Below, one piece after another: positions 29,499-44,619 of a DNA stretch of 64,000 bases. The position numbers and the translations under genes are program-made. Position 1 is the stretch's first letter. Each line of letters starts with the position of its first letter. The notes beneath the pieces are model-generated. The model saw only the letters and a list, made by a program, of their open reading frames with translations. It did no database searches and had not been told where the DNA came from. The DNA comes from Gilvimarinus xylanilyticus (GTDB lineage Bacteria > Pseudomonadota > Gammaproteobacteria > Pseudomonadales > Cellvibrionaceae), in the NCBI RefSeq assembly GCF_024195295.1, contig NZ_JAMFTH010000002.1:310001-374000 (forward strand). The letters run 5' to 3'.

Positions 29499-30518
29499 AT
29501 GACCCAGCCACGGAAACAGCTGATTTCTCTCGACGACACCCCCTATTATCATTGCGTCTCGCGCTGCGTTCGCCGGGCCTTTCTATGTGGCTCGGGGGAA
29601 GGCTACAACTTTGAGCATCGCAGGGGCTGGATCGTGCAGAGACTCAAGCAGCTATCGGCGGTATTTGCAGTGGATGTGGCCGCTTACGCTGTTATGTCCA
29701 ACCACTATCATGTGGTGCTTCGTGTTAATAAGCCCCTTTCCGACAACCTCAGCCGGGACGAGATCATTCGCCGCTGGCGGACACTGTTTAAGGGTCCACC
29801 CCTGGTTCAGCGCTATCTAACAGGCGCAAGACTGAACAAACCCGAAGTGGACGTAGTAGACGAAGTTGTCGAACAATGGCGCAGCCGCCTATGCGACATC
29901 AGCTGGTTCATGCGCTGCCTCAATGAACCCATAGCGCGCTGGGCCAACCAGGAAGACAATTGCACCGGCCGGTTCTTTGAGGGGCGCTTTAAAAGCCAGG
30001 CGCTGCTGGATGAACGCGCCATACTCAGCTGTATGGCCTATGTAGACCTTAACCCCATCCGCGCCACCATAGCTGATACCCCCGAGGCCTCAGACTTTAC
30101 CAGCATTCAGGAGCGCCTGGGTATAGAGCCCACCACCTCAGTCGAATCACCGGCCGGTAACGATCAAGACAAGCCCTTGGCACTGGCCGAGCTGATGCCC
30201 TTTGCCGGGAGCGAGCATCAAAACAACTCACCCAACCACCTGCCTTTTGATCTGAGCGACTACCTAGAGCTGGTAGACTGGACCGGTCGCGCCATTCGAG
30301 GCGACAAACGCGGCGCCATCGACACAAAGCTCCCCACTATACTCGACAGGCTTGGCCTACCCTCAAAAGACTGGCTTGATACCTGCTGCCACATCGAGCG
30401 GCGTTTTGGCCGAGCCATTGGCCCGGTCGCCAAAGTCAGTGAGTTGTGTGAATCGTTAAACTTAAACTGGATACACGGCATTCAGAACTGCCGAAAGCTT
30501 TACCCGAAAACCAGCTGA
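29499..30518 (+). CDS. REP-associated tyrosine transposase (Y1 HUH nuclease)
   Basis: A 339-aa single-strand DNA transposase of the IS200-like Y1 superfamily, REP-associated subgroup. The HUH motif is His69-Tyr70-His71 in VMSNHYHVVLRV; the probable catalytic tyrosine is Tyr181 in MAYVDLNPIRA; GRFFEGRFKSQALL (157-170) is typical. The gene starts behind AAGGAGG. Such proteins are thought to mobilise palindromic extragenic repeats; matching repeats flank it here. The C-terminal 140 residues are an extension seen in some members. Confidence 0.9.
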   Translation: MTQPRKQLISLDDTPYYHCVSRCVRRAFLCGSGEGYNFEHRRGWIVQRLKQLSAVFAVDVAAYAVMSNHYHVVLRVNKPLSDNLSRDEIIRRWRTLFKGPPLVQRYLTGARLNKPEVDVVDEVVEQWRSRLCDISWFMRCLNEPIARWANQEDNCTGRFFEGRFKSQALLDERAILSCMAYVDLNPIRATIADTPEASDFTSIQERLGIEPTTSVESPAGNDQDKPLALAELMPFAGSEHQNNSPNHLPFDLSDYLELVDWTGRAIRGDKRGAIDTKLPTILDRLGLPSKDWLDTCCHIERRFGRAIGPVAKVSELCESLNLNWIHGIQNCRKLYPKTS

Positions 30519-31867: not shown

Positions 31868-32839
31868 CTACAGTTGCGGCAAAAAATTCAAAGTATAATT
31901 CCGCGTAGTCACCACCACATCATCCCTTGCCGGAAAGGTAATCAACTTAACCCGCGCCAACACCTTCGCCTCCAACTCGGGATCGTTAAGACCCGAGCTA
32001 ACAATGGTGACATCGGCGAGGGTACCATTGGGGTTAATCACCAGCGCCAGTACTATTTTACCCTGCAACGCGGGGTTGCTGCGCAGGGCGCGGCGGTAGT
32101 AACGGTCCAGCGCGCTGGCGTGCTGGCTCATGACCTGCCGAATTTCTTCGTCGCTGCGCTGGCCACGGCTTTTGCTTTTCTCGGGCTGGGTTGAAGCCAC
32201 GGCATCTTCGCCGCCCAGCGGGCTTTCAACCTGGGTAGTTTCGCGCCCCGACAGAGCCACGCCGCCGGTATCGGTGGAAAGCTCGGCGGTGTTAATGCCG
32301 CCACTATCGGCTTGGGCGTTGCTGGTAATGAGGTCGCGCTGGGTTTGCTCGGCTTCGGCCTGGCCCCGGGTAATGTCATTGCTGGCTACGGCCTGGGTGT
32401 CGATGGCCTCGCGCATATCGCTCAGGGCATCCTGGAATTGCAGCACGCCGGTGGTTTTGGCTTTTTCCCGCGCTTTATCCACTTCAGTGACCGGTTCTGG
32501 TTCGGGCTCGGGCGTTTCTTCGGGTTCTGGTTCCGGTTCGTCTTCGGGCTCAGGTTCCGGTTCGGGTTCTGTTTCTTCTTCAGGCTCCGGCTCCGGTTCC
32601 GGCTCGGGTTCAGGTTCCGGCTCTGGCTCCATCTCCTGCTTTTCCAGCAGTACCCGCGCCAGCTGCGGGGGCAGCTCTTCTTTTTCTTCGCGCTCGATTT
32701 CTGGCAGGTTAATCAGCGGTATGGTCACCCCCAGCACGACAAATATTGCCACGGCGCCTACAAGTATTTTGCCAAAGCGCGAGTCGTCGGCGGCGCTGCG
32801 ATTAAAGGGTGACGAAAGCTCGGGGTTACGGCGGGCCAT
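31868..32839 (-). CDS. TonB-like AgmX/PglI C-terminal domain protein (energy transducer)
   Basis: A 323-aa inner-membrane protein that should carry energy from the ExbB/ExbD complex across the periplasm. Short cytoplasmic N-terminus, one TM (about 26-44), EP-rich rod (71-116), a Gln/Ala/Ser-rich segment, and a C-terminal domain starting [20 protein letters not shown] and ending LNFLPQL, the AgmX/PglI C-terminal family, distinct from the TonB fold. In Myxococcus AgmX belongs to the gliding machinery. Last gene of the operon; it overlaps the ExbD gene by one base (TAATG). Confidence 0.9.
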
Positions 32840-33360
32840 TACCGGGCGGCCCCCTCAAGCGCTTCGCCGCGCTTGTCGGCGGTTTTATTAACCGCCAGGG
32901 AAATATCGCGGTAACCCGCCTGGGCGCAGGTGTTCATGACCTGTTTAAGCAGCGTATAGGGAATGGCCTTATCGCCCATAATGGTAATGGGCAGGCCCTT
33001 GGCCTGTTGCTCGGGGGTGATGTTGCGGCGCGAGGCGCGGTATTCCAGCTCGGTTAACAGCGGGGTAATTTCCGCGTCCTCGCCAATGCTGGCGATGTCG
33101 GTTACCGGGCGGCCGCCCACCAGAATATTCTGGTCGTTTACCATGACCACCAGAGTGGTCTCGGGCACGGTGTCGGCGATAGAAGCCGGCAGCTTAATGG
33201 ATTTATCGTTGGTTAGTACCTCAACGTCGGAGGAGTTCACCAACAAAAAGAACACCAAAATGGTGAAGATATCCATCAGCGACACCAGATTCAGCTTGGG
33301 CACATTCTGGTTGCGGCGATGGTGCTTGGCCATACGTTTGGCGCGCAGCGATTGCTTCAT
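32839..33360 (-). CDS. ExbD/TolR-family protein with the conserved Asp
   Basis: A 173-aa inner-membrane protein with one TM (about 28-42) and a periplasmic domain. The proton-carrying Asp is present as Asp30 in [18 protein letters not shown]. The periplasmic part ends in the ExbD-like pattern [20 protein letters not shown]. Its start overlaps the upstream exbD-like gene by 4 bases (ATGA). Together with its paralogue it should form the peripheral ExbD dimer in the ExbB pentamer. Confidence 0.92.
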
Positions 33361-33929
33361 GGCGCACCTCCGGTAACGGTGTCGCAGGGCACCTGATCGC
33401 GCAGCGGATCATTCTCGGGGGCATCGCCCAAAGACACATCGGGGAAGAGCGAGGCGTCCACCACGTTTGCCGCTACCACCGCTTTAAACGAGCGCACCGC
33501 ATCCATGGTGCTGACAATGGTCTGGTAATCGGTATCGGGCTGGGCGAGCAAAACAATGTCGTTTTTCTCGATTTGATACTCGTCTTCCAGGCGCACCTTA
33601 ATCTGCTGCAGGGCTTCGTTCAGTTGGGTGTAGTTATGGCTACCGGCCAGCTCGCCCTCTGGGTGGGGGCAGACCGAAAAGGCGCGGTTACCCGCCGGAT
33701 GGTTAATTCCGAGATAATCGGGGTAAATAACCACCTCTAAAAAGTCCATGTCTTCGGTTTCTGTCGCACTGCTGGACGAGGCCGAATCGGGTAGATTCAG
33801 CTCCAGCACGGTAATGCGCGAGAACACCATGCTCAGCAACAGCACCGGCACCAATACGATCATCAGATTCATAAAGGAGGTGATGTTGAGCTCGGCTTCC
33901 TCGTTGTGGCGCCGTCTTCTAAAGCGCAT
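33357..33929 (-). CDS. Second ExbD/TolR-family protein, Asp replaced by Asn
   Basis: A 190-aa paralogue with basic N-terminus (MRFRRRRH), TM about 16-37 and a periplasmic domain. Where ExbD and TolR have the essential TM aspartate, this protein reads ITSFMNLMIVLVPVLL with Asn21. The periplasmic part has an insertion around FSVCPHPEGELAGSH and the QPDTDYQTIVSTMDAVRSF motif typical of ExbD. It lies 9 bases after the exbB-like gene. It may be the non-protonatable half of an ExbD heterodimer. Confidence 0.9.
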   Translation of the reverse strand: MRFRRRRHNEEAELNITSFMNLMIVLVPVLLLSMVFSRITVLELNLPDSASSSSATETEDMDFLEVVIYPDYLGINHPAGNRAFSVCPHPEGELAGSHNYTQLNEALQQIKVRLEDEYQIEKNDIVLLAQPDTDYQTIVSTMDAVRSFKAVVAANVVDASLFPDVSLGDAPENDPLRDQVPCDTVTGGAP

Positions 33930-33938
33930 GAGCCCGCC

Positions 33939-34613
33939 TTAAACGCCCGCCTTGGGGGCCGCCTGGGCGGCGGGTTTGGCTGGGGCCTTACCGGTTAGCA
34001 GGTTCAGGCATTTCACCCCGGTCATTTCCAGCGAATCCACAAGCTCGGTGGTTTTGGTTTGCAGCATGGCGTGAAACAACAAAAGCGGAATGGCGGAAAT
34101 AAGACCAAAGGCGGTGGTGTTCATGGCCACCGAAATACTGTTAGACAGCAAGGTCGCTTTCTCGGCCGGGTCGGCCTCGGCGACGGCGGTAAAGGCGGCG
34201 ATTAGGCCGATAATAGTGCCCAGCAGCCCGAGCAAGGTGGCGATATTGGCAAGGGTGGCGAGATAGGGCGTGCGCTTTTCCAAGCGGGGCATGGCCTCTA
34301 ACACGCCCTCTTCCATGGCCAGCTCGATATCATCGCGGTTGCCCGACTGGCCCATGCGCGCCACCCCGGCGGCGACAATGCGCGCGATGGGCGCGTCATC
34401 GGAGCGGCCCATTTGCACCGCGCCCTGATAGTCGCGCTTTCTAAGCAGCGGCATAACCCGGTTAAACGCATTGGCATTGGCGCGCTTGGCGGCGCTAAGC
34501 ACTAGGTAGCGTTCTACGGCAATCACCAAACCAATAATCAGCACCAGCGCAATGGGGTACATAAAAGGTCCGCCGTTTTGAAAAAAACGTACGATCGTCG
34601 AGAAAAAATCCAT
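33939..34613 (-). CDS. ExbB/TolQ/MotA-family proton channel subunit
   Basis: A 224-aa inner-membrane protein: three TM helices (about 18-38, 115-140, 160-185). The family core is intact: LLGLLGTIIGLIAAF with Thr133, and SVAMNTTAFGLISAIPLLLF with Thr166/Thr167, which line the proton path. The periplasmic/cytoplasmic loop 45-110 is ExbB-like. It forms the motor with the two ExbD-type proteins encoded just downstream. The C-terminal 20 residues are Ala/Pro/Lys-rich. Confidence 0.93.
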   Translation of the reverse strand: MDFFSTIVRFFQNGGPFMYPIALVLIIGLVIAVERYLVLSAAKRANANAFNRVMPLLRKRDYQGAVQMGRSDDAPIARIVAAGVARMGQSGNRDDIELAMEEGVLEAMPRLEKRTPYLATLANIATLLGLLGTIIGLIAAFTAVAEADPAEKATLLSNSISVAMNTTAFGLISAIPLLLFHAMLQTKTTELVDSLEMTGVKCLNLLTGKAPAKPAAQAAPKAGV

Positions 34614-34671
34614 AGTCTTTTTACCTTATTAATGACTCGCTGCAGCCGGTTTGACGCCGACCCATTATGCC

Positions 34672-34977
34672 TTAATTTTCCAGCTCTGTTTGTGACTGCG
34701 CTGGGCTTTTTACTTCAGTATTTTCCGAAGGCGCCTCAACGTCATCTAACAACTTTAATTCCCGGGTTAACTCCGAGCGCTCCAAGTGTTGATAAACCGC
34801 CGCGGATTGATCGCGCACCACATCATACTTGAGTGTGGGACTGTCGAGCGTTTGCCAGGGCACAATATACAATACCTGAGGTTGCTCCTGGTTGCCGGTA
34901 ATGTTGCTTTGCAGGTTATCGTCCTGCCCCACGGCCAGCGCGGGTACCAGTACCAATCCATACAATATTTTGTTCAC
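34672..34977 (-). CDS. Small exported protein of the ExbBD-TPR operon
   Basis: A 101-aa protein with a signal peptide (MNKILYGLVLVPALAVG) and a short periplasmic domain containing PQVLYIVPWQTLDSPTLKYD and a polar C-terminus. It starts at GTG overlapping the previous gene by 4 bases (GTGTGA), so translation is coupled; a longer upstream-open frame is not needed. No family recognised. Context suggests an accessory part of the machine. Confidence 0.75.
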   Translation of the reverse strand: MNKILYGLVLVPALAVGQDDNLQSNITGNQEQPQVLYIVPWQTLDSPTLKYDVVRDQSAAVYQHLERSELTRELKLLDDVEAPSENTEVKSPAQSQTELEN

Positions 34978-35663
34978 ACGCCCTCCCCGGCTTTGATGCG
35001 CCTTTGCAAATCGATAATCCAACCGTTCAGCGTCGCATTCGGCTCGCCCTGGGTTTGCTCGATAATAATTTGCGCGGCCTGATAGTGTTCCAACGCTTCG
35101 GGCCAGTCGCCGGTGTAAATATCCAACAAAATGCCCAGGTTTTTGTGGGCGGCGACACTGTGAGGCCAAACCTCCAAAGCCTGCTCGTAGTTGTTTTGCG
35201 CCTGCGTGAAGTTACCCTCGCGCCGCTCCAGTGCGCCCAAATGGTTGTAGGCATCTACGTTTAAGGGGTTGGCGGCCAGCGCGCGTTCAAACGCGGCGCG
35301 GGCCTGGCCGGGCTCGTTAAGTTGTACCCAGACAATACCCAGGTTTAACCAGGGACCGGACAGTTCCGGCGCCTGAACCACCAACTGCTGCAGGGTTTGG
35401 CGCGCGCCGCTCCACTGCGCGTTTTGCATTTGCCGCTGGGCGCGGGCAAAGGCGCTTTGGACATCGGCGCTGACGTTGGGTGCAGGCGAGTCTAAATAAG
35501 GGTTACGGGTGATAGGGCCTGCGGGTAAAGCCGAATTATCAAACTCGGGGACTACCGCCTCGGCGTCGGTGGGTTCGGGCACGGGCGCTTTTTCGGGCGC
35601 ACTGGAACAACCGATCAGCAGCAACCCCACGATAAGTGGCGCAAACCATTTAGCGAATCTCAC
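34974..35663 (-). CDS. TPR lipoprotein of the ExbBD operon
   Basis: A 229-aa lipoprotein (lipobox LLIGC) with four or so TPR units, for example GPWLNLGIVWVQLNEPGQAR, NVDAYNHLGALERREGNFTQ and VAAHKNLGILLDIYTGDWPE. The GTG at 35663 sits behind GGAGG and lies inside the end of the upstream gene, overlapping it by 14 bases. It probably acts as a protein scaffold at the membrane. Confidence 0.88.
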   Translation of the reverse strand: MRFAKWFAPLIVGLLLIGCSSAPEKAPVPEPTDAEAVVPEFDNSALPAGPITRNPYLDSPAPNVSADVQSAFARAQRQMQNAQWSGARQTLQQLVVQAPELSGPWLNLGIVWVQLNEPGQARAAFERALAANPLNVDAYNHLGALERREGNFTQAQNNYEQALEVWPHSVAAHKNLGILLDIYTGDWPEALEHYQAAQIIIEQTQGEPNATLNGWIIDLQRRIKAGEGV

Positions 35664-38610
35664 GGGCCACCTCCACGGTCTGTTCTTGTTTGCCGTAACG
35701 CGCGGGCAAAAGTTTAGCCAGCGAGTCGATACTGGCCGCGACCCATTCATCGTAAATACCGCCCCAGCTGCGCTCGGCGTTGGCCTTGTGCAGGTCGATG
35801 GCTTTTTCCTCGAGGGGGAAGACCTGCTCTTCCAACAGAATATCGTACTGTTCCAGCTCCAGGGCGTTAAGATTATCCGGGCGTTCGGAGTCCATTAAAT
35901 CCCGCGCCAGCGAGGTATAAATCTGGCCGATAAAATAATTGGCGCGGGTGGTAAAGTCGGCCACCTTAAAATCCAACACTCGCTGCTGTGCCGCCAGGGC
36001 GTCATCCAGGGCGGCGCGCTTATTCCCCAGGCTTTGTTTAATGGGCAGGGTTAAGGCGATATTTTTAAAGCGGTTGTACGGGGCCTCGGCCAGGGTGGCG
36101 GCGGCCTGGGCACCCAAATACTGGCTGCGCTCGGTGGGGTTGGCGCGGGCGGTTTTAATAATCCGGTCGAGCCAGAAGTCCCGGCTTTGGACATCGCCGA
36201 CCTCGTTGTACAACTCGGACAAACGCAGCTCGACCTCTAACCGATCGGTCACCGGCTCGGCGTAGGTGTGTGCATAGTCGCGGTAGTGATCGCGCGCGCC
36301 CTGCCAGTCGCCGTCTTTATCGTAGTACTCGGCCGCGCTAAGCAGTGATTGCCGCCCCAGCTCAGTGCCGGAATTGGCCGTCGCCTGTTCGCTTAGCAGG
36401 GCGGCGGCCTGGGACCAATCTTCCTGCGCCTCGTAAATCACAATCAGTTTAGCGGGTAAGCGTGTACCCAGCTCGTGGCCCGGGTAACTGGCATTAAACT
36501 CGGTCAGCAGGCTTTCGGCCTGGGCGTAATCACCCGCCATTTGCGCGGCGTGGCCGGCGTCGAACAACGCGGTGGCAGCGATGTCGGTAGCGGGTAATTC
36601 GCGGTGAATCCGCAGCAGCAGATCAATGCCTGCGGCGGTTTCCCCGGCGGCCAGTTGCGCCTGGCCCTGCTGGTAAATACTGGCGGCAATACGCTCGTGA
36701 ATCTCGGCGGCGGTGGGGGCGCCCGACTGCTGACCATACTCAGTGTGCAAATCCAGCGCTTGCCAATAGGCCTGTTCGGCGGCTGGGTAATCTTCTTGCG
36801 CAAAGCGCGCGTGGGCCAGGGTTAGCCAGGCGGTGTAGCGCGAGTCGCCACCCGGCTCGGGCTGCCAGTCGATAACCTGCTGAGCAACGGTCGCGGCGCG
36901 GTGATAATCCTGCTGCTGCAACAGCTCGGGCGCGGTTTGGGTAAGTACCGCCAGGGCGCGGCTGTCATCCGGGTAAATGCGCGCAAACTGCAGGGCGTTA
37001 TCAATTTTGCGCTCTTGCCACTGCCACAGCTGGCTTTGCACTGGCTCGTCGGCGAGCGTTGAGGTGGCCAATGGCTCGCCCTTGCTGGCGCGCTCCACCA
37101 GTGTTTGCGCCAAGAGTACCGAGCTGTAACCCGCCTCGGCGCCGTAGTCTTTGTCAATGCGGTCAAACGCAACTGTCTCGTAGGCGCTTAAGGCGGCAAT
37201 GGTGCGGCCGCTGTCTTGATAGGCCTCGGCCATTAAAAAGTTCATTTCCCCCGCGCGCTCGTCCAGCGGGAAAGTCACAATAAACTCTTCGTAGCGCGCC
37301 GCGGCGGCGCTGTAGGCGCGGTTTACATCGGCGCGCGAGGGCGCCTCGGCCGCAGGCTGATTTAAGGCCAGTTGCAAGCGCTGGGCTTCGGCGTGGTTAT
37401 GGCGCGCCAACTCTTCCAAATACAGCCTTAGCTGGGCCAGGGCCTCGCTGCTCATATTGCGCGGGCGGTTGTTGCGCACTTGCTGGCGGGCGGCCAGGGC
37501 ACTGGTGGTTTGGGGAATGCCCGCGCGGGCCTGCCAGTAGCGGCTGTAAATGCCGTATTGATCCACATAGGCCTCTTTGGCGGGCAGCACCAGCGAGGGA
37601 AAACCACCTGCCTGGTAAGCCTTAATCTCGCGAATGGAAAAATCCGGCGCCATGTCCGACTCGGGGTTATTACTCACAAACCGGGCGTAGGTATCGGCGC
37701 TATCCAGGTAGCGATCTTGGGTTTGGTACAGCTGCCCCAACTGCTGATACAGCCGGTGCTGGTAGGGCCGGGTGCCGATTGCGCGCTGCTGCTCGGCAAT
37801 GGACTGGGCGCCGTCGAGGTTGGCGTAGGTAAAACTAATAACCCGCAGGGTGTCGTCCACCAGGTTGCGCTGGTTGGGGTCCATGCGGGTCAGGCGCGTC
37901 TCGACCTGAGAGGGCAAGGTCGCCCCAGCAAAGGCCTGATCCAGCAGCTGGGTAAACCGCGCCAGAGCGTCCTCGTAACGCCCCTGTTTGTAGGCCGCCC
38001 AGCCCTGCATATAGAGCGCATTATCGGCAAAGGCGCTGGTGGGGCTGGCGGCCACCACCTGATACAACCCACCGGCGCGCTCGTAGTCACCCGCGGCAAA
38101 GGCCCGTTCGGCGCGGCGGAACTGGGCCTCGTGAATATAGGGCGACTCGGGAAAGCGGCGCGCCAGCTCGTCCAGGGTGGCGGCGGCCTCTTGGTCGCGG
38201 CCATCCAGCGCGTAGGCTTTGGCGAGTTTGTAATAGAGCGCATCCGGCGCGGTGGCGACCGACTGCTCGGGGTCTTGTTGGTAGTCCTCCACCAAAGCTT
38301 GATAGTGGGCGATAGGCTCAGCAAAAAATGCGGTTAGGGTGCGGGCCTCTTGCTGGGCTTGCTCGCTGCGGGCCATTTCCAAATCGGCCAGGCGCACCTG
38401 AATATGGTGGCGTACCTCGGGGTCGGTGGCCACCTGCAAAGCGGTGCGGTACTGGGCCTCAATCTGGGCCAGGTCCGCCGCCTTAACGCCTTCGTCTTGA
38501 TCGGGCAGAGTCGCCTCGGGCAAATCCGCGAGGGTGCGGCTGTCCTCCACCGGATTATGGCTGCAGGCGGCGAGCAGCACCGCGAGGGCTAAAGGCGTCA
38601 CCCGGATCAC
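35650..38610 (-). CDS. Large TPR-repeat lipoprotein (986 aa)
   Basis: A 986-aa lipoprotein with a signal and lipobox LLAAC near residue 16, then TPR-like helical repeats over nearly the whole length; clear units include ALYYKLAKAYALDGRDQEAA, RRAERAFAAGDYERAGGLYQ and ALYMQGWAAYKQGRYEDALA. It is probably anchored in the inner leaflet of the outer membrane or the inner membrane and faces the periplasm. ATGA-type overlap with the preceding gene shows coupling. Function is unknown; the length suggests a long solenoid that could span the periplasm. Confidence 0.88.
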   Translation of the reverse strand: MIRVTPLALAVLLAACSHNPVEDSRTLADLPEATLPDQDEGVKAADLAQIEAQYRTALQVATDPEVRHHIQVRLADLEMARSEQAQQEARTLTAFFAEPIAHYQALVEDYQQDPEQSVATAPDALYYKLAKAYALDGRDQEAAATLDELARRFPESPYIHEAQFRRAERAFAAGDYERAGGLYQVVAASPTSAFADNALYMQGWAAYKQGRYEDALARFTQLLDQAFAGATLPSQVETRLTRMDPNQRNLVDDTLRVISFTYANLDGAQSIAEQQRAIGTRPYQHRLYQQLGQLYQTQDRYLDSADTYARFVSNNPESDMAPDFSIREIKAYQAGGFPSLVLPAKEAYVDQYGIYSRYWQARAGIPQTTSALAARQQVRNNRPRNMSSEALAQLRLYLEELARHNHAEAQRLQLALNQPAAEAPSRADVNRAYSAAAARYEEFIVTFPLDERAGEMNFLMAEAYQDSGRTIAALSAYETVAFDRIDKDYGAEAGYSSVLLAQTLVERASKGEPLATSTLADEPVQSQLWQWQERKIDNALQFARIYPDDSRALAVLTQTAPELLQQQDYHRAATVAQQVIDWQPEPGGDSRYTAWLTLAHARFAQEDYPAAEQAYWQALDLHTEYGQQSGAPTAAEIHERIAASIYQQGQAQLAAGETAAGIDLLLRIHRELPATDIAATALFDAGHAAQMAGDYAQAESLLTEFNASYPGHELGTRLPAKLIVIYEAQEDWSQAAALLSEQATANSGTELGRQSLLSAAEYYDKDGDWQGARDHYRDYAHTYAEPVTDRLEVELRLSELYNEVGDVQSRDFWLDRIIKTARANPTERSQYLGAQAAATLAEAPYNRFKNIALTLPIKQSLGNKRAALDDALAAQQRVLDFKVADFTTRANYFIGQIYTSLARDLMDSERPDNLNALELEQYDILLEEQVFPLEEKAIDLHKANAERSWGGIYDEWVAASIDSLAKLLPARYGKQEQTVEVAREIR

Positions 38611-40541
38611 GGTTGCACCTCGGGCAATTGCGGGCCGTCGGACGGGGGATCAGCGCGGTAGGCATCGTCCAGCAGCCGGGCAATACTTAAACGCGTCTGG
38701 GCCAAATAATCGTTTAGGCGCACACGGTGATTGGATAAATGCTCGCTCAGGGTATCGGCCAAGGCATTACCTCGCTCTTGTATGGCCTGCCTGAGCGCCG
38801 CCAACTCGCGATCATTGCGCGCACTTAAACGGTTTAACGCCGCGAGCCCGGCATCGATATCCGGCTCGCTTTGCAACAGCGATTGAATCCGGGTGGCGCG
38901 CTCGTCCGCCTCGGCCAGGGTTGCCTCGGCGGTGGTTAGCGGCTTTTGTACCTGCCACAGGTTGTGGGCAAACTGCTCGTGGGCGCGCCAACGGAGAATA
39001 CCGCGATAAAGCTGTAGCTTTGCGGCAGTATCGGGCGGCAGGTTTTGCTGCCCTTGCAACTGGCTGAAGCTTTGTTCGGCGCGCTGCAAACGCAGCCACA
39101 GTTTAGCGGTATCGCCCGTTGCCAGCGCCATGGCATTGCGCTCTTGCGCCAGAGTTTGCAAGCGCTGCCGTTGTTCACGATGTGCAGCACCAAGCGCCGC
39201 CGGTTGTTGTAGTGTTTGTTGCTGCTGCAATTGCGCGGCGCGTTCGACCCGGCGCTGACGTTTGTCCTCCCACAGCTGGGTGTAAATCACGAGTTTGTTT
39301 TGCCACTGTTGCAGTTTATCCGCCAGGCCCAACAGGTCGCGAAGGTTCTGCACCCGGGCCTGAAAATCATCGCTAATCAGTAATTCATCCAGGTAAGTTA
39401 AGTCGCTTTGCAGCACACTGACCTGATCCAGCGAAAGCCAGTTTTGACGGGAATGGGTGTCGCCCCATTGCAGGCTGGGGTGCGACTCGGCATCGTTTAA
39501 GTGGGCTAAAAGCTCCGATCCGCTCATGCGCGCGAGCGCGGCATCCAGCTCGGCCAATTCGGCGGTGAGTAGCAGCTCGGACTCGCGATAGGCGCCGAGC
39601 GCGGCGCCAGTGGAGTCAATCTGCTCGTAGGCCCAGGGCACGGCGATTAACGATTCCTGCACCGCCGGGTCCAGCAGGGATCGCTGGCGCAGCGCTTGCC
39701 AGGGCTTTAGCGCCAATACGTAATCGTGGTAGCTGGCCGCCGCCCAGCCATAGCCCAGCAGGGCGCGATTGGCGAGCGAGGTATCCAGCCGCACCCCGCG
39801 AAACGCCGCCTTGGCCGAGGCGTAGTCGCGCTGTTCCAAGTAGCTGTAGCCCAGCGCGGTGTAGACCTTATCGCGAATGGCCAAATACTCATCCACCCGC
39901 GCCTCGTCCTCGGGGGCATCTTCGTCCAGCATGGCCCGGTAGTAGCTTTGCGCCCGAATCGGATCGCCCCCACGGGCGGCGCTGTTGCCCAAGTTCAACA
40001 GTGCCAGATAGCGATTGTCCGCCAGAGGCTCAAGCAAGGGGGCGGCCGTTGCTAGGCTGGGAGCCCCGGATTGCTGAATGCGCAAATGCACTGCCAGCAG
40101 GGCTGACTCGTCGCTAAGATGCGGGGGAAGCGCCTCGCCCACGGCCTGTAAATGCTGCCGGGCGGCGGCATAGTCGCGGGCTTGGTAACTGAGCCGCGCC
40201 AAATAATAATGCGCTGTGTCGCGAACCGGCTCGGGCTCGCCCTGGCCCAAATGGGCCGAGAATTCGGCGCGCGCGCGCTCGGTCATGCCATAGGCGAGGT
40301 ACATCCCGGCGCGCATTAGCTGGGGGTAATGGCCGTGGCCGCTCATGCCGCCGCGCTGATTGGCAAGCTCCAGGGTAGTGAGGGCCTGGGCAAAATCGCC
40401 CTGATAGTAGTGGTACAAGCCTTCGCCGTAATCCAGATCTTGCGCCGCCGAGTGGGTCTGCGTTGCAGGCGGGCTCGCCGCCAGGGCCGCGGCGCCCCAC
40501 AGCGTCAGCGCTAGGGCGATACTGTGACTTACAGCTCCCAT
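38607..40541 (-). CDS. Exported TPR/coiled-coil protein (644 aa)
   Basis: A 644-aa exported protein with signal peptide (IALALTLWGAAALA), an N-terminal TPR half (DLDYGEGLYHYYQGDFAQAL, then TAHYYLARLSYQARDYAAAR) and a C-terminal half rich in Gln, Leu, Ala and Arg likely to form coiled coils (for example ERAAQLQQQQTLQQ). No lipobox. It overlaps the next gene by 4 bases and the previous one by 13. It should be a periplasmic structural part of the machine. Confidence 0.85.
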   Translation of the reverse strand: MGAVSHSIALALTLWGAAALAASPPATQTHSAAQDLDYGEGLYHYYQGDFAQALTTLELANQRGGMSGHGHYPQLMRAGMYLAYGMTERARAEFSAHLGQGEPEPVRDTAHYYLARLSYQARDYAAARQHLQAVGEALPPHLSDESALLAVHLRIQQSGAPSLATAAPLLEPLADNRYLALLNLGNSAARGGDPIRAQSYYRAMLDEDAPEDEARVDEYLAIRDKVYTALGYSYLEQRDYASAKAAFRGVRLDTSLANRALLGYGWAAASYHDYVLALKPWQALRQRSLLDPAVQESLIAVPWAYEQIDSTGAALGAYRESELLLTAELAELDAALARMSGSELLAHLNDAESHPSLQWGDTHSRQNWLSLDQVSVLQSDLTYLDELLISDDFQARVQNLRDLLGLADKLQQWQNKLVIYTQLWEDKRQRRVERAAQLQQQQTLQQPAALGAAHREQRQRLQTLAQERNAMALATGDTAKLWLRLQRAEQSFSQLQGQQNLPPDTAAKLQLYRGILRWRAHEQFAHNLWQVQKPLTTAEATLAEADERATRIQSLLQSEPDIDAGLAALNRLSARNDRELAALRQAIQERGNALADTLSEHLSNHRVRLNDYLAQTRLSIARLLDDAYRADPPSDGPQLPEVQP

Positions 40542-41035
40542 TGCTTAATTTCAAACACCGGTTGTAACTTGGCCGTCGAGTCGACAATTTTTAACTCTAG
40601 CACCAGCGGGGCGGTGGTCTTTTCTACCTGCAGCGACGCCGCACGTTTGTAGGGCTGGCCCTGGGGCCCTTCGCCGGTAAAGAAGGCGCTGATTTCGTGT
40701 GCGCCGCTTTTGATGTTGCCCAAGTACAGTTTCTGCACGCCGCCGCGAATCAGTGCGTCCACCTGATTGTCGGTATAGAGTTCGCTGGTGACAAACGTGT
40801 CGTCAATTTTGACCTTGACCGCATCCAGGGCGAAGTACTCGGCAACATCCATACTCAAGTACAGGGCAATTTGACTGCTGGGCGGGTAGAGCAGCTCTTC
40901 TTCCAGAATAAGCAAATCGCGATTTAGCTCTAGGGCGCGCTGCTTCAGCGTCTGGGCGTCCGCAGCGGGATCGCTCTGGGCGCCGGCGGGCAAGCACACC
41001 AGGCACAGCGCCAGTAATAATAGTGTTCGAATCAT
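40529..41035 (-). CDS. Exported protein, first gene of the ExbBD-TPR operon
   Basis: A 168-aa protein with signal peptide (MIRTLLLLALCLVCLPAGA). The mature part starts with a helix (ADAQTLKQRALELNRDLLIL) and continues as a beta-rich domain (VKVKIDDTFVTSELY, then LYLGNIKSGAHEISAFFTGE), reminiscent of PEGA or carbohydrate-binding-like sandwiches. The ATG at 41035 has AGGAAG in good position; an in-frame ATG ten codons upstream would bury the signal. Function unknown. Confidence 0.82.
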   Translation of the reverse strand: MIRTLLLLALCLVCLPAGAQSDPAADAQTLKQRALELNRDLLILEEELLYPPSSQIALYLSMDVAEYFALDAVKVKIDDTFVTSELYTDNQVDALIRGGVQKLYLGNIKSGAHEISAFFTGEGPQGQPYKRAASLQVEKTTAPLVLELKIVDSTAKLQPVFEIKQWEL

Positions 41036-41199: not shown

Positions 41200-42195
41200 T
41201 CACTGTTCGCCCGCCGCCAAACCATCGCTGTAATGCACCTTGCCCTTACGGGTGATAATCACCGCATCGAAACCGCTCAGACGATTAATCAGCGCCAGCC
41301 CCTCGTCTGCGCCCAGCACAAACACACTGGTCGATAGGGCATCGGTATCAAACCCTCGGGGGCCAATTATGGTCACACTGGCAAGCTCGGCGGTGCTTTT
41401 ACCGGTTTGCGGGTTAATAATATGGTGGACCCAGTCGCCATCCTCATTGATAAAGTAGCGTTCGTAATCCCCCGAAGTGGATATAGCGGTATCAGTTAAA
41501 GGTAAGGTAATAGCGACCCCCTCGCCACCGCGAGGCTTTTTAATGCCCACCATCCAGGGGCGGCCGCGCCTGTCACCCAGCACCCGGCTGTCGCCCCCGG
41601 CGCTGACGCTGGCGTGCTGCACGCCGTCGTTTTCCAGCAACTCGATAGCGCGATCCACGGCATAGCCCTTGGCGATTCCGCCCAAATCGATATACACCGC
41701 CGGGTGCTGGTAATAAACGCTCTGCTCCGTTTTATCCAACACGACATGGCGGTAATCAATGGCTTCGGCCAGCTGCTGAGCTTGACTGTCGCTTGGGGCC
41801 TTGCCCGCGCGATAGTCGTAATAACGCCCCACCGAGGCAAAAGTAATATCGAAGGCGCCATCGGTTAAGCGGCCGTAAAAAAGCGACTTATCCAGCAGGC
41901 GTGTCATTTCTGCGTCTATTGCAATCGGCTTGTTTACCGCTTGAGGCTTGGCAGCCTCGCGATTGAGCCGCGATAGCTCGCTGGTCTCTCGGTAGGGACT
42001 GTAAGTATTATCGATGCGCTTCATTTCCTGCATCACTTGCGCGGCCAAGGCCTCGCCGCGCGCTTGGTCGGTGTGCCACAAGCTGACACTGACCCGAGTG
42101 CCCATAATATCGGCTTGCCGATGCACCCATTCGGCATGGGCAACCGTACTCAAAACCAGTGCGGCTAAGGCCCACACAAACACCAACAATCGCAT
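41200..42195 (-). CDS. apbE: FAD:protein FMN transferase (ApbE)
   Basis: A 331-aa exported flavin transferase that attaches FMN to Thr/Ser of periplasmic or membrane proteins such as Nqr subunits. Signal peptide to about residue 21; conserved IMGTRVSVSLW, the Mg/FAD segment IDLGGIAKGYAVDRA, VSAGGDSRVLGDRRGRPW, and near the end DTDALSTSVFVLG. Lipobox absent. It lies 60 bases downstream of the PAS-GGDEF-EAL gene and may share its transcript. Its target protein is not in this window. Confidence 0.93.
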   Translation of the reverse strand: MRLLVFVWALAALVLSTVAHAEWVHRQADIMGTRVSVSLWHTDQARGEALAAQVMQEMKRIDNTYSPYRETSELSRLNREAAKPQAVNKPIAIDAEMTRLLDKSLFYGRLTDGAFDITFASVGRYYDYRAGKAPSDSQAQQLAEAIDYRHVVLDKTEQSVYYQHPAVYIDLGGIAKGYAVDRAIELLENDGVQHASVSAGGDSRVLGDRRGRPWMVGIKKPRGGEGVAITLPLTDTAISTSGDYERYFINEDGDWVHHIINPQTGKSTAELASVTIIGPRGFDTDALSTSVFVLGADEGLALINRLSGFDAVIITRKGKVHYSDGLAAGEQ

Positions 42196-42255: not shown

Positions 42256-44619
42256 CTAACAATCTGTTTCTTTGAGTAGCTCAATCAGCGAGCTGGGCTT
42301 GTGCACGCCAAAGCCCTGAGCGTAATCCACGCCCATGGCCTTGAGTAACTGCAAACACTCGTCGTTTTCTACAAATTCGGCAATCGTGGACTTACTGAGG
42401 GTTTGTCCGACTTCGTTAATCGCCCGCACCATAGCCAAGTCGGTTTTGTCATCGACAATATCGCGCACAAATACCCCGTCAATTTTTAACGTATCGACAG
42501 GCAGGCGGCGCAAGTAACTAAACGAGGACAGGCCGGTACCGAAATCATCTAACGCAAAGCTGCAGCCAATTTCGCCCAGAGCTTCCATCAGCGCAATGGC
42601 CTCCAATAGGTTATTAACCGCTGCCGTTTCGGTGACTTCAAAACAGATTTTCTCGGGCGGCACCGGGTAGCGCTCAAAGCATTGCACCACAAAAGTGTAA
42701 AACTCCGGCTGATCCAGCGAGACGCCGGACAAATTGATATGGCATTTCGCCAGCTTCTGCAAATGTTTGGGGTGCGCCGCCAAAAGCGATAAGGTGTGTT
42801 CAATCACCCAGCGGTCAATTTGATTGGCCGCACCGAAACGCTCCGCTGCGGGTAAAAAAGCCGCCGGCGAGACAATCTTGCCACTTTCATCGCGCAGCCG
42901 CACCAGCACTTCGTAGGAAAGCAAATCGGTCTCTTGTTGCAAAGGGGCAATGCGTTGCGCATCCAAAAAGAGCCGATCATTTTCCATAGCTTCGCGAATC
43001 CGGCCCAGCCAGTGCATTTCACCTTCGCGCTGCTGTTGAAACTGATCGTTCTCGCGCGAGACATATACCCGGTTGCGACCCTTATCTTTCGCCAGGTAGC
43101 AGGCGATATCCGCCGCCCGCATAATCGATTCGGTATTTTGCGCGGTGGCCGAAATAGCCACCACGCCAATACTGCAGCTGATGTTATAGCTGTGACCGTC
43201 CCAGCTAAAATGAAACTCCTCCAAAGCCGCACGGAGTTTTTCGGCAACTTTCTCTGCCGCCTCCAGCGAGCAATTCTCTAAAACCATGGCAAATTCGTCG
43301 CCCCCCAGGCGGGCAAACATATCGCAGTCGCGCAGTTCACGACGAAAAACATCCACTACCTGTTGCAGCAATCGGTCACCGGCAAAATGCCCCGAGGTAT
43401 CGTTAACCACTTTAAATTGATCTAAATCGATAAAGCAGAGCGCATGGCTGGTACCCTCCACTCGGGCACGCTTAAACGACTCGCCCAAGCGCCGCTCAAA
43501 CGCGCGGCGATTGTACAAACCGGTAAGCACATCGTGGGTGGCCTGAAAGTTCAACTCTTTGGACAGCCGGCGAGACTCGGAGATATCTTCCACAATTACC
43601 ACACAATCGGCCGCACTGCTGGCGCGCGAATAGGTCAGCCGCGCCCATAAGACCCCGCCACCCAAACGGTTTAAACGCTGCTCTACGGTAAAGCGGGGTA
43701 AAACCCCGGTGGCCAGCTGGCGACATTGGGCATCGTCAATCTCCCAATCTTCGGGGTGCACAAAATCGCGCAACGGGGTACCCGTTAATTGCTCGGCCTG
43801 AATATTTAAAATATCGGCAATGGCCGGGTTCGCCCGAGTGACTACCCCCGCGGCATCCAGGTGAACGATACCCACCGCCGCCTGGGTGAATATCGCCTGA
43901 AATTTTTCCTGGGTACCTTGTAGCAGTCGCACCAAGCGCCAGATAAGTAATGAGGCCAGAACCGCAAACACAATAAAAAACACCAGACTCGCCAGCGTTA
44001 ACGTATCGGTTAACCAGCGATTGGTGCTAGTCATGACCTCGCGAAACTCGGATGCCAGCTGTTGCAACCTTATATTGTTGCCGTGCAGCGCCTGCTTGAG
44101 TTGCTGCAATCGTTGAGGATTCGGTGGGCCACGCCAATAGTGCTCTAAATCATCAGCGATACGGGCTAGCTCAAGAATATAGGGATCGGAGTCACGCCAG
44201 AGAGAAAAGGCTCGTTGCAGCTGGCCCAGATCGCCAAAATCGCGATAGAGCCAAATCATCAGGCGGGCATCATCGGGATGATTGGCGCCACGAACAAACG
44301 CCGCCACCACCACATCATCGGATGATTTCGCTTCCAGCTCCAGGCGCCCGTGTCGATCGGACAGCGGAACGGACAAATACTCGCGGGCGGCTTGTAAATC
44401 GCTGCGCTGCCCCTGTTCGGCGTAGCGACTTAGGTGATGAACGGCACCTATCTGCGATTGATTCCAAACACTCAGACCACTTAAATAAGCGCTGGCTGCG
44501 GCCTGTAGCTGAACCATACCTACGGACATACTGGTGGCAAGCCCCAACAGAGTCAGCAAACCTGCAACCAACAAGGCGATTTTAAACGGAGGAGCAAACT
44601 GGGGTTGCGATCGATCCAT
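42256..44619 (-). CDS. Membrane PAS-GGDEF-EAL protein (cyclic-di-GMP turnover)
   Basis: A 787-aa protein: N-terminal TM (about 14-36), helical periplasmic sensor (about 40-200), TM (about 205-230), PAS domain (about 236-350), GGDEF domain with GGDEF at 439-443 and an intact I-site RDCD (430-433), and EAL domain with EVL at 570-572 and DDFGTG retained. Both catalytic centres look usable; the I-site would give feedback inhibition. It differs from the protein at 9532, which lacks the I-site. The ligand of the sensor is unknown. Confidence 0.93.
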   Translation of the reverse strand: MDRSQPQFAPPFKIALLVAGLLTLLGLATSMSVGMVQLQAAASAYLSGLSVWNQSQIGAVHHLSRYAEQGQRSDLQAAREYLSVPLSDRHGRLELEAKSSDDVVVAAFVRGANHPDDARLMIWLYRDFGDLGQLQRAFSLWRDSDPYILELARIADDLEHYWRGPPNPQRLQQLKQALHGNNIRLQQLASEFREVMTSTNRWLTDTLTLASLVFFIVFAVLASLLIWRLVRLLQGTQEKFQAIFTQAAVGIVHLDAAGVVTRANPAIADILNIQAEQLTGTPLRDFVHPEDWEIDDAQCRQLATGVLPRFTVEQRLNRLGGGVLWARLTYSRASSAADCVVIVEDISESRRLSKELNFQATHDVLTGLYNRRAFERRLGESFKRARVEGTSHALCFIDLDQFKVVNDTSGHFAGDRLLQQVVDVFRRELRDCDMFARLGGDEFAMVLENCSLEAAEKVAEKLRAALEEFHFSWDGHSYNISCSIGVVAISATAQNTESIMRAADIACYLAKDKGRNRVYVSRENDQFQQQREGEMHWLGRIREAMENDRLFLDAQRIAPLQQETDLLSYEVLVRLRDESGKIVSPAAFLPAAERFGAANQIDRWVIEHTLSLLAAHPKHLQKLAKCHINLSGVSLDQPEFYTFVVQCFERYPVPPEKICFEVTETAAVNNLLEAIALMEALGEIGCSFALDDFGTGLSSFSYLRRLPVDTLKIDGVFVRDIVDDKTDLAMVRAINEVGQTLSKSTIAEFVENDECLQLLKAMGVDYAQGFGVHKPSSLIELLKETDC

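Follow-up and report, generated by a model that had tools for sequence, protein, structure and literature searches.

A nine-gene operon of Gilvimarinus xylanilyticus as a copy of the Agl-Glt core complex, with an asparagine at the proton site of one of its two ExbD subunits

Nine minus-strand genes of the gammaproteobacterium Gilvimarinus xylanilyticus, confirmed from the open reading frames (ORFs) between 41035 and 31868 of a 64,000-nucleotide stretch of DNA, hereafter the window (contig NZ_JAMFTH010000002.1, positions 310,001 to 374,000 of the forward strand), encode a proton-driven machine of the envelope, a copy of one that earlier work presents as ancestral to the gliding motor of Myxococcus. 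They almost certainly correspond to what has been called the gammaproteobacterial Agl-Glt core complex. One of the two ExbD-type subunits has Asn where the proton-carrying Asp is expected, and this substitution is nearly constant among gammaproteobacterial copies of the operon, some of which adjoin genes for giant surface proteins. The best overall reading, which we consider probable on balance, is that of a proton-driven machine moving or displaying surface proteins attached to the outer membrane. The nine genes, in the direction of transcription, are as follows (aa, amino acids; TPR, tetratricopeptide repeat; TM, transmembrane):

40529-41035, minus strand: g1, exported protein of 168 aa, in 41/41 loci
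38607-40541, minus strand: GltC-like exported TPR/coiled-coil protein of 644 aa (profile matches in relatives; hhalign)
35650-38610, minus strand: GltD-like TPR lipoprotein of 986 aa, GTG start, lipobox by eye (matches to GltD-type ORFs of Myxococcus sp. CA023)
34974-35663, minus strand: GltE-like TPR lipoprotein of 229 aa, lipobox by eye (domain scan; hhalign)
34672-34977, minus strand: g5, exported protein of 101 aa, GTG start, motif GNQEQPxVLYIVPW, found in 39/39 loci
33939-34613, minus strand: AglR-like ExbB/TolQ/MotA proton-channel subunit of 224 aa (MotA_ExbB domain; AglR model)
33357-33929, minus strand: ExbD-a, AglQ-type ExbD of 190 aa, with Asn21 replacing the proton-carrying Asp (alignment)
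32839-33360, minus strand: ExbD-b, AglS-type ExbD of 173 aa, with a conserved Asp30 (alignment)
31868-32839, minus strand: GltG/AgmX-type transducer of 323 aa, with one TM helix, an EP-rich linker and an AgmX/PglI C-terminal domain

An earlier, sequence-only reading of the window had described this operon as an undescribed energy-transducing envelope machine that does not match Agl/Glt. Its anatomy, i.e., gene number and lengths, junctions (overlaps of 13, 4, 14, 4, 4, and 1 bases, gaps of 58 and 9 bases) and families, is confirmed by the window sequence and by domain scans, and the energy-transducing part of the claim also stands, the ExbB/ExbD/ExbD set being conserved as a unit with an AgmX/PglI transducer and with TPR lipoproteins. 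With Pfam and NCBIfam models, MotA_ExbB scored 103 bits in the AglR-like protein and ExbD 61 and 50 bits in the two ExbDs, TPRs were detected in three of the nine proteins, and g1 and g5 had no match. The AgmX/PglI C-terminal domain of the GltG-like protein scored 66 bits (cut-off 40) and is the only match to this domain in the whole genome; the full-length GltG model gave 47 bits, far below its cut-off of 650.

Identity with the Agl-Glt core complex

The gene set has been in print since 2011. According to Luciano et al. 2011, Group A gliding genes, such as gltA, gltB, gltF, gltH, gltI, gltJ, and gltK, are confined to Myxococcales and Bdellovibrionales, while Group B consists of gltC, gltD, gltE, gltG, aglR, aglQ, and aglS and, together with one additional gene, also occurs clustered at one site in Gammaproteobacteria, Saccharophagus, Teredinibacter, and Marinobacter among them, and in a few other taxa; this cluster is termed the core complex, and its function was given as unknown (PMC3169522; here and below, statements on cited papers refer to the portions of their text that could be consulted). 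Wartel et al. 2013 later considered the core as a possible basal transport machinery (PMC3858216). The word "undescribed" thus has to be withdrawn, since the same gene set was already published, except as regards function, for which nothing published was found; the denial of a match to Agl/Glt was wrong, given both the published core complex and the Myxococcus matches that follow.

Eight genomes, three of them of the Geobacter group, were searched with a model of AglR that combined 18 gammaproteobacterial rows; the names of the myxobacterial genomes were found through an MglA scan. In Myxococcus sp. CA023, this model retrieved two loci, at 171 and 159 bits, with the next ExbB-type protein at 74 bits, and in both loci aglR is followed by an AglQ-type and then an AglS-type gene, matched by the models of the expected subunits. 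The same genome has GltD-type ORFs in four clusters (248, 186, 177, and 118 bits). A second opinion was obtained with hhalign against myxobacterial sets: 98.4% (E 6.6e-15) for GltC, 99.7% (E 1.3e-26) for GltE and 99.5% (E 1.3e-22) across the C-terminal 97 columns for GltG, versus at most 0.3% for mismatched-set controls, scores that are not independent of the analysis because the myxobacterial sets were chosen with the same models, and that TPR repeats may raise for GltC, GltD, and GltE. The conserved gene order also supports the orthology of GltC, GltD, GltE, and GltG. The three genomes of the Geobacter group gave no full AglR match (none in two, a partial one of 53 bits in the third); Luciano et al. 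report the core complex in Geobacter representatives (PMC3169522).

Some differences from the published systems are nevertheless clear. With respect to the core complex of 2011, which has the same gltC, gltD, gltE, gltG, aglR, aglQ, and aglS genes plus the additional gene in one gammaproteobacterial cluster (PMC3169522), the operon regularly has a ninth, small gene, g5, and its AglQ-type subunit carries Asn. The additional gene, which is probably g1, was described as having no homologue in Myxococcales (PMC3169522), whereas g1 has a relative in Myxococcaceae (hhalign 95%, E 3e-8). The motors for gliding (Agl-Glt) and spore-coat building (Agl-Nfs) in Myxococcus share AglR, AglQ, AglS, GltG/NfsG, homologues of GltC, GltD, and GltE, and the motor gene order with the operon (PMC3858216), in which no gene was recognized as gltA, gltB, gltH, gltI, gltJ, or gltK.

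The g1 relative lies in a Glt-like cluster found directly 3' of mglA, on the same strand, in Myxococcus sp. CA023 (L152:115-6592) and in Hyalangium (L158:4185-14081). This cluster has the order g1-GltC-GltD of the operon, with also GltE, a small gene and GltG in Hyalangium, but no aglRQS in the stretch fetched. Its GltD-type proteins have the top scores among myxobacterial GltD-types with the gammaproteobacterial model (248 and 255 bits). It is probably the G4 cluster of Luciano et al., MXAN_1922, judging from the locus number of mglBA.

The small gene g5 was considered as a homologue of GltF, which it resembles in position and size, but hhalign against a set of proteins from the GltF position gave 1%, and homology is not claimed. 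A hidden Markov model of g5 had one match, at 19 bits, to the small gene of Hyalangium (E 1.3e-4, the search space being small), and a regular expression for the g5 motif retrieved nothing in 16 myxobacterial loci.

Conservation, distribution, and natural fusions

The gene order was followed in other genomes through 41 loci, namely the window and 40 fetched stretches (33 best copies and 7 second copies). The order g1-GltC-GltD-GltE-AglR-ExbD-a-ExbD-b-GltG is kept in 39 of them, g1 is present in all 41, and g5 sits between GltE and AglR in each of the 39 loci that have both; a chance assembly is thus not the explanation of this gene set. The two exceptions are L065, which stops at a contig end, and L060, where only g1 and GltC are seen in 17.8 kb. 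A lack of conservation between the TPR genes and exbBD would have spoken against the operon as a unit; they are conserved together, and the original observation therefore stands. GltC-like matches were obtained in 40 of 58 relatives, with 8/8 for the genus and 32/37 for the family; among those outside the family, a few are weak and one has internal stops.

Beyond these relatives, g1 was detected in 85 of 370 genomes sampled across Gammaproteobacteria. Twenty of these class-wide loci, selected for their diversity and for unusual frame lengths, were examined: the motor trio is present in 16, contig ends truncate three others (L171, L174, and L182), and L181 continues from g1 to g5 and then shows no motor genes over 6.7 kb. 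In L179 and L186, GltE was not recognized. Given this distribution of g1 and the class-wide loci read, the core complex is far commoner than the cases of 2011.

Several loci carry natural fusions. GltC and GltD form one reading frame in L057 (1534 aa) and in L180 and L185 (1415 aa each), and g1 and GltC do so in L170 (757 aa) and L171 (694 aa), which suggests a chain of contacts g1-GltC-GltD. In L173, the GltD frame is 1353 aa long, its initial 500 residues not being recognized as GltC.

The motor and its axle

The complex is very likely a proton motor. The pore threonines of AglR are kept, one in 55/55 loci and the other in 53/55, with two loci not parsed. The AglS-type ExbD-b has the proton-carrying Asp in all 55 gammaproteobacterial loci, whereas the AglQ-type ExbD-a has Asn at this position in 54; the sole exception, L170, with Asp in ExbD-a, and the kinship of the 55 loci, eight of which come from one genus, both weigh against the reading that follows from these figures. 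Other ExbD-family proteins of the genus have Asp in 26/26 readable cases (30 loci examined of 56 matches, four of them unreadable).

The simplest reading of an ExbD-a that lacks the proton-carrying Asp is a mixed ExbD-a/ExbD-b axle with one protonatable site, which we regard as fairly likely; a working ExbD-a homodimer is improbable, since this subunit could not carry a proton at that site. In the first AglR locus of Myxococcus sp. CA023, AglQ has Asp at residue 28, in agreement with the literature, and replacing this Asp28 by Asn in Myxococcus paralyses gliding and blocks sporulation (PMC3858216). The AglQ-type subunit of the operon thus naturally has the residue that disables the Myxococcus motor. 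A review indicates that AglQ and AglS are both predicted to bear Asp, the choice between homo- and heterodimers being undecided (PMC9389320), a question on which the Asn of the AglQ-type subunit bears directly.

Among eight myxobacterial pairs, AglS has Asp in all and AglQ in seven, the remaining one, of Nannocystis, having Asn. Of note, the Nannocystis locus (L164:4004-13928) groups GltD-GltE-AglR-AglQ-AglS-GltG in one cluster, with an AglQ-type subunit that resembles the gammaproteobacterial type in its Asn.

Neighbouring genes and candidate cargo

Genes next to the operon differ between groups of a tree of AglR (55 gammaproteobacterial and eight myxobacterial rows, with long branches present). 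Type 1, with 30 loci including the window, is only weakly one clade (SH-aLRT 73), which may not exclude type 2; the latter has five loci (SH-aLRT 100) and type 3 ten (SH-aLRT 96), and ten loci remain ungrouped.

The most striking neighbours are those of type 3. There, GltG is 446-477 aa long, versus 303-358 aa in other loci, and the extra part is N-terminal, since the model match starts at residue 152 (in L168, e.g., L168:12933-14294). A large gene on the same strand begins 37-511 bases after GltG in all ten loci, which span seven families (f1, f40, f94, f98, f109, f131, and f143). Eight of the proteins measure 2,790-4,859 aa from the first possible start, and two are cut by contig ends. The four giants scanned, as fragments, out of these ten all have DUF11 and isopeptide fimbrial domains above cut-off. 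The next gene encodes a protein of 1,589-1,740 aa in the eight uncut loci, with OmpA domains above cut-off in 4/4 scanned, and an end that is beta-barrel-like by eye, one Pfam barrel match being just below cut-off. This protein (loci L061, L063, L064, L069, L168, L169, L178, and L184, with downstream stretches L188-L195) resembles a dedicated outer-membrane anchor or exporter and belongs to no named family.

Type 2 loci are followed, in four out of five (the cut locus L065 being left out of the count), by a gene for a lipoprotein, with a lipobox recognized by eye, that has a fibro-slime domain above cut-off; PKD repeats are present in the two that were scanned with Pfam. This neighbour was seen in one family only.

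In type 1, to which the window belongs, the conserved neighbour lies upstream:

41200-42195, minus strand: apbE (FAD:protein FMN transferase), upstream neighbour of the operon (PF02424, 272 bits)

Of the 30 type 1 loci, 28 (all but L032 and L047) have this gene upstream in the same orientation, at most 0.5 kb away in 25. Upstream stretches also contain genes of the type II secretion system (T2SS), gspN in 17, gspM in 17, gspL in 16, and gspK in 15 of 30 loci, with the gsp identities confirmed by Pfam in one locus. In addition, T2SSN is present in 28 of 29 family genomes scored as type 1 (one of these, G023, by identity only; the lone miss is G030) versus 3/8 others (Fisher 0.0007, a value uncorrected for kinship and for small genomes). 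The substrate motif of ApbE, D..[ST]GA[TS], is absent from all nine proteins of the operon.

Giant surface proteins next to sister copies point to proteins of this kind as what the machine handles, and thus open its role to testing. Surface proteins as cargo are put forward tentatively for the complex as a whole, and for the window's own group they are doubtful; there, a product of the T2SS is the likely partner, and this is the weakest step of the argument.

Proposed mechanism and alternatives

In the inner membrane, an AglR pentamer and a mixed ExbD-a/ExbD-b pair would form a proton-driven 5:2 motor, whose axle would probably be an obligate heterodimer with one protonatable site, the proton-carrying Asp being absent from ExbD-a. 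Protons flowing through AglR and the two ExbDs would turn or move this axle, and GltG, spanning the periplasm, would pass the force on to a periplasmic and outer-membrane TPR platform made of g1, GltC, GltD, and GltE, of which the first three are probably in direct contact. The platform would in turn pull, position, or display proteins attached to the outer membrane. In one sister clade these would be the giant DUF11 proteins, in the other the fibro-slime lipoproteins; for the window's group, they would probably be substrates that the T2SS delivers. If the cargo idea is true, the machine would work like GldLM with the adhesin SprB in Bacteroidetes, a proton motor moving a surface adhesin (PMC8986121), with no sequence relation claimed. 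A broader and doubtful proposal is that core complexes are widespread mixed-axle motors with one proton site, each clade dedicated to its own surface protein (DUF11/isopeptide with an OmpA-barrel protein, fibro-slime, or T2SS-delivered), and that Myxococcus came late to using an ancestral adhesin-moving machine for gliding and for building the spore coat.

Several observations weigh against the moving or display of surface proteins. The window operon has no surface-protein gene directly downstream; its genome gave no DUF11 match, with positive controls (DUF11 is found in 3/8 genomes of the genus), and no fibro-slime match in a search run without a positive control. In type 2, L070 has an unrelated 400-aa gene in place of the fibro-slime gene. 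As for the link to secretion, gspN of the window genome is located on another contig, the co-occurrence statistic is, as previously mentioned, uncorrected, and synteny conserved inside one family may be frozen gene order. The partial sets of L060 and L181, where motor genes are absent from the stretch read, also count here, and these may be decayed or split operons. Finally, a polar mutation in a relative from Myxococcus, MXAN_1922 (G4), gave no motility phenotype (PMC3169522), and no experiment on the gammaproteobacterial core complex was found in the open-licence literature.

The same upstream genes would fit an accessory energizer of the T2SS, helping to release, retain, or spread its substrates at the outer membrane with no adhesin being moved. 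In its favour are the distribution of T2SSN and, in the window's group, a same-strand run of gspK-L-M-N followed by apbE that precedes the operon (gspN in 17/30 loci); however, no gsp match was obtained in the stretches read upstream of the operon in either sister clade, two of the three family genomes that have the long-GltG type alone lack T2SSN (G010 and G020; G011 has it), and the possibility of a frozen gene order applies here as well. This role is unlikely.

Somewhat less likely still is a system of the Tol-Pal or TonB kind that would serve envelope stability or polymer uptake. Tol-Pal and TonB-ExbBD belong to the same ExbB/ExbD motor class and share the TonB-like transducer, but the operon has two unlike ExbDs and a TPR platform and, as the sequence-only reading had noted for Pal and the receptor, no TolB, Pal, or receptor domain in its nine proteins, the recurrent flanking genes being partly identified. 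Further ExbD-family genes exist in the genome (seven matches in all). Moreover, the TM His, part of the motor-binding motif of TolA and TonB (PMC12204202), is absent from the window GltG and from GltG in 51/55 loci, as read with a simple hydrophobicity window. The same source describes, in the Planctomycetes-Verrucomicrobia-Chlamydiae group, other motor clusters with two TolRs and a vWA transducer, its main text making no mention of AgmX/GltG (PMC12204202).

A gliding motor that moves the cell across surfaces, like Agl-Glt in Myxococcus, is very unlikely, even though the core proteins are homologous to those of Myxococcus: as seen above, none of the nine genes was recognized as gltA, gltB, gltH, gltI, gltJ, or gltK, the proton-carrying Asp28 of AglQ is replaced by Asn in the window and nearly all gammaproteobacterial loci, and MglA had no match in 8/8 genomes of the genus, in a search run without a positive control. 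An undescribed machine unrelated to Agl/Glt, lastly, is scarcely credible, having the anatomy of the operon in its favour and nothing more, and the published core complex and the Myxococcus matches against it.

The function of the core complex is a question standing since 2011, and the conserved neighbours are concrete candidate partners in bacteria not known to glide. In the open-licence literature, supplements aside, no described function, Asn or adhesin link was found beyond the two papers on the core complex and the Myxococcus motors (PMC3169522; PMC3858216, within the portions consulted). Nor did that literature yield the Asn axle, the surface proteins linked to some copies, the synteny with apbE and the T2SS, the natural fusions, or a myxobacterial relative of g1.

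Other features of the operon and its surroundings

The lipoprotein assignments are based on lipoboxes read from the sequence. The N-terminus of the GltD-like protein is MIRVTPLALAVLLAAC, and the GltE-like protein carries LLLIGC; the lipobox pattern is present in 47/58 GltD rows and 48/56 GltE rows, some of which have doubtful starts.

For g1, an AlphaFold2 model predicts a helix at residues 23-49 followed by a beta-sandwich (mean predicted local distance difference test score 88.5). Foldseek returned no match to this fold at E <=1e-3, and the best match in VIA-align was the PepT2 ectodomain (Z 9.1, root-mean-square deviation 2.6, 97 residues), the next rows, including transthyretins, being at 8.5 or below. 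The predicted fold is a common sandwich and says little on function.

Between 31500 and 42300, neither promoters (four found versus 4.5 expected from shuffles) nor terminators (17 found versus 14.1, standard deviation 4.4, from shuffles) were in clear excess. Upstream of the operon, a PAS-GGDEF-EAL protein is encoded next to apbE, at 42256-44619. Downstream, on the other strand, lies a transposase-like ORF (29499-30518, of the IS200/REP type by eye), which may mark a break in the neighbourhood.

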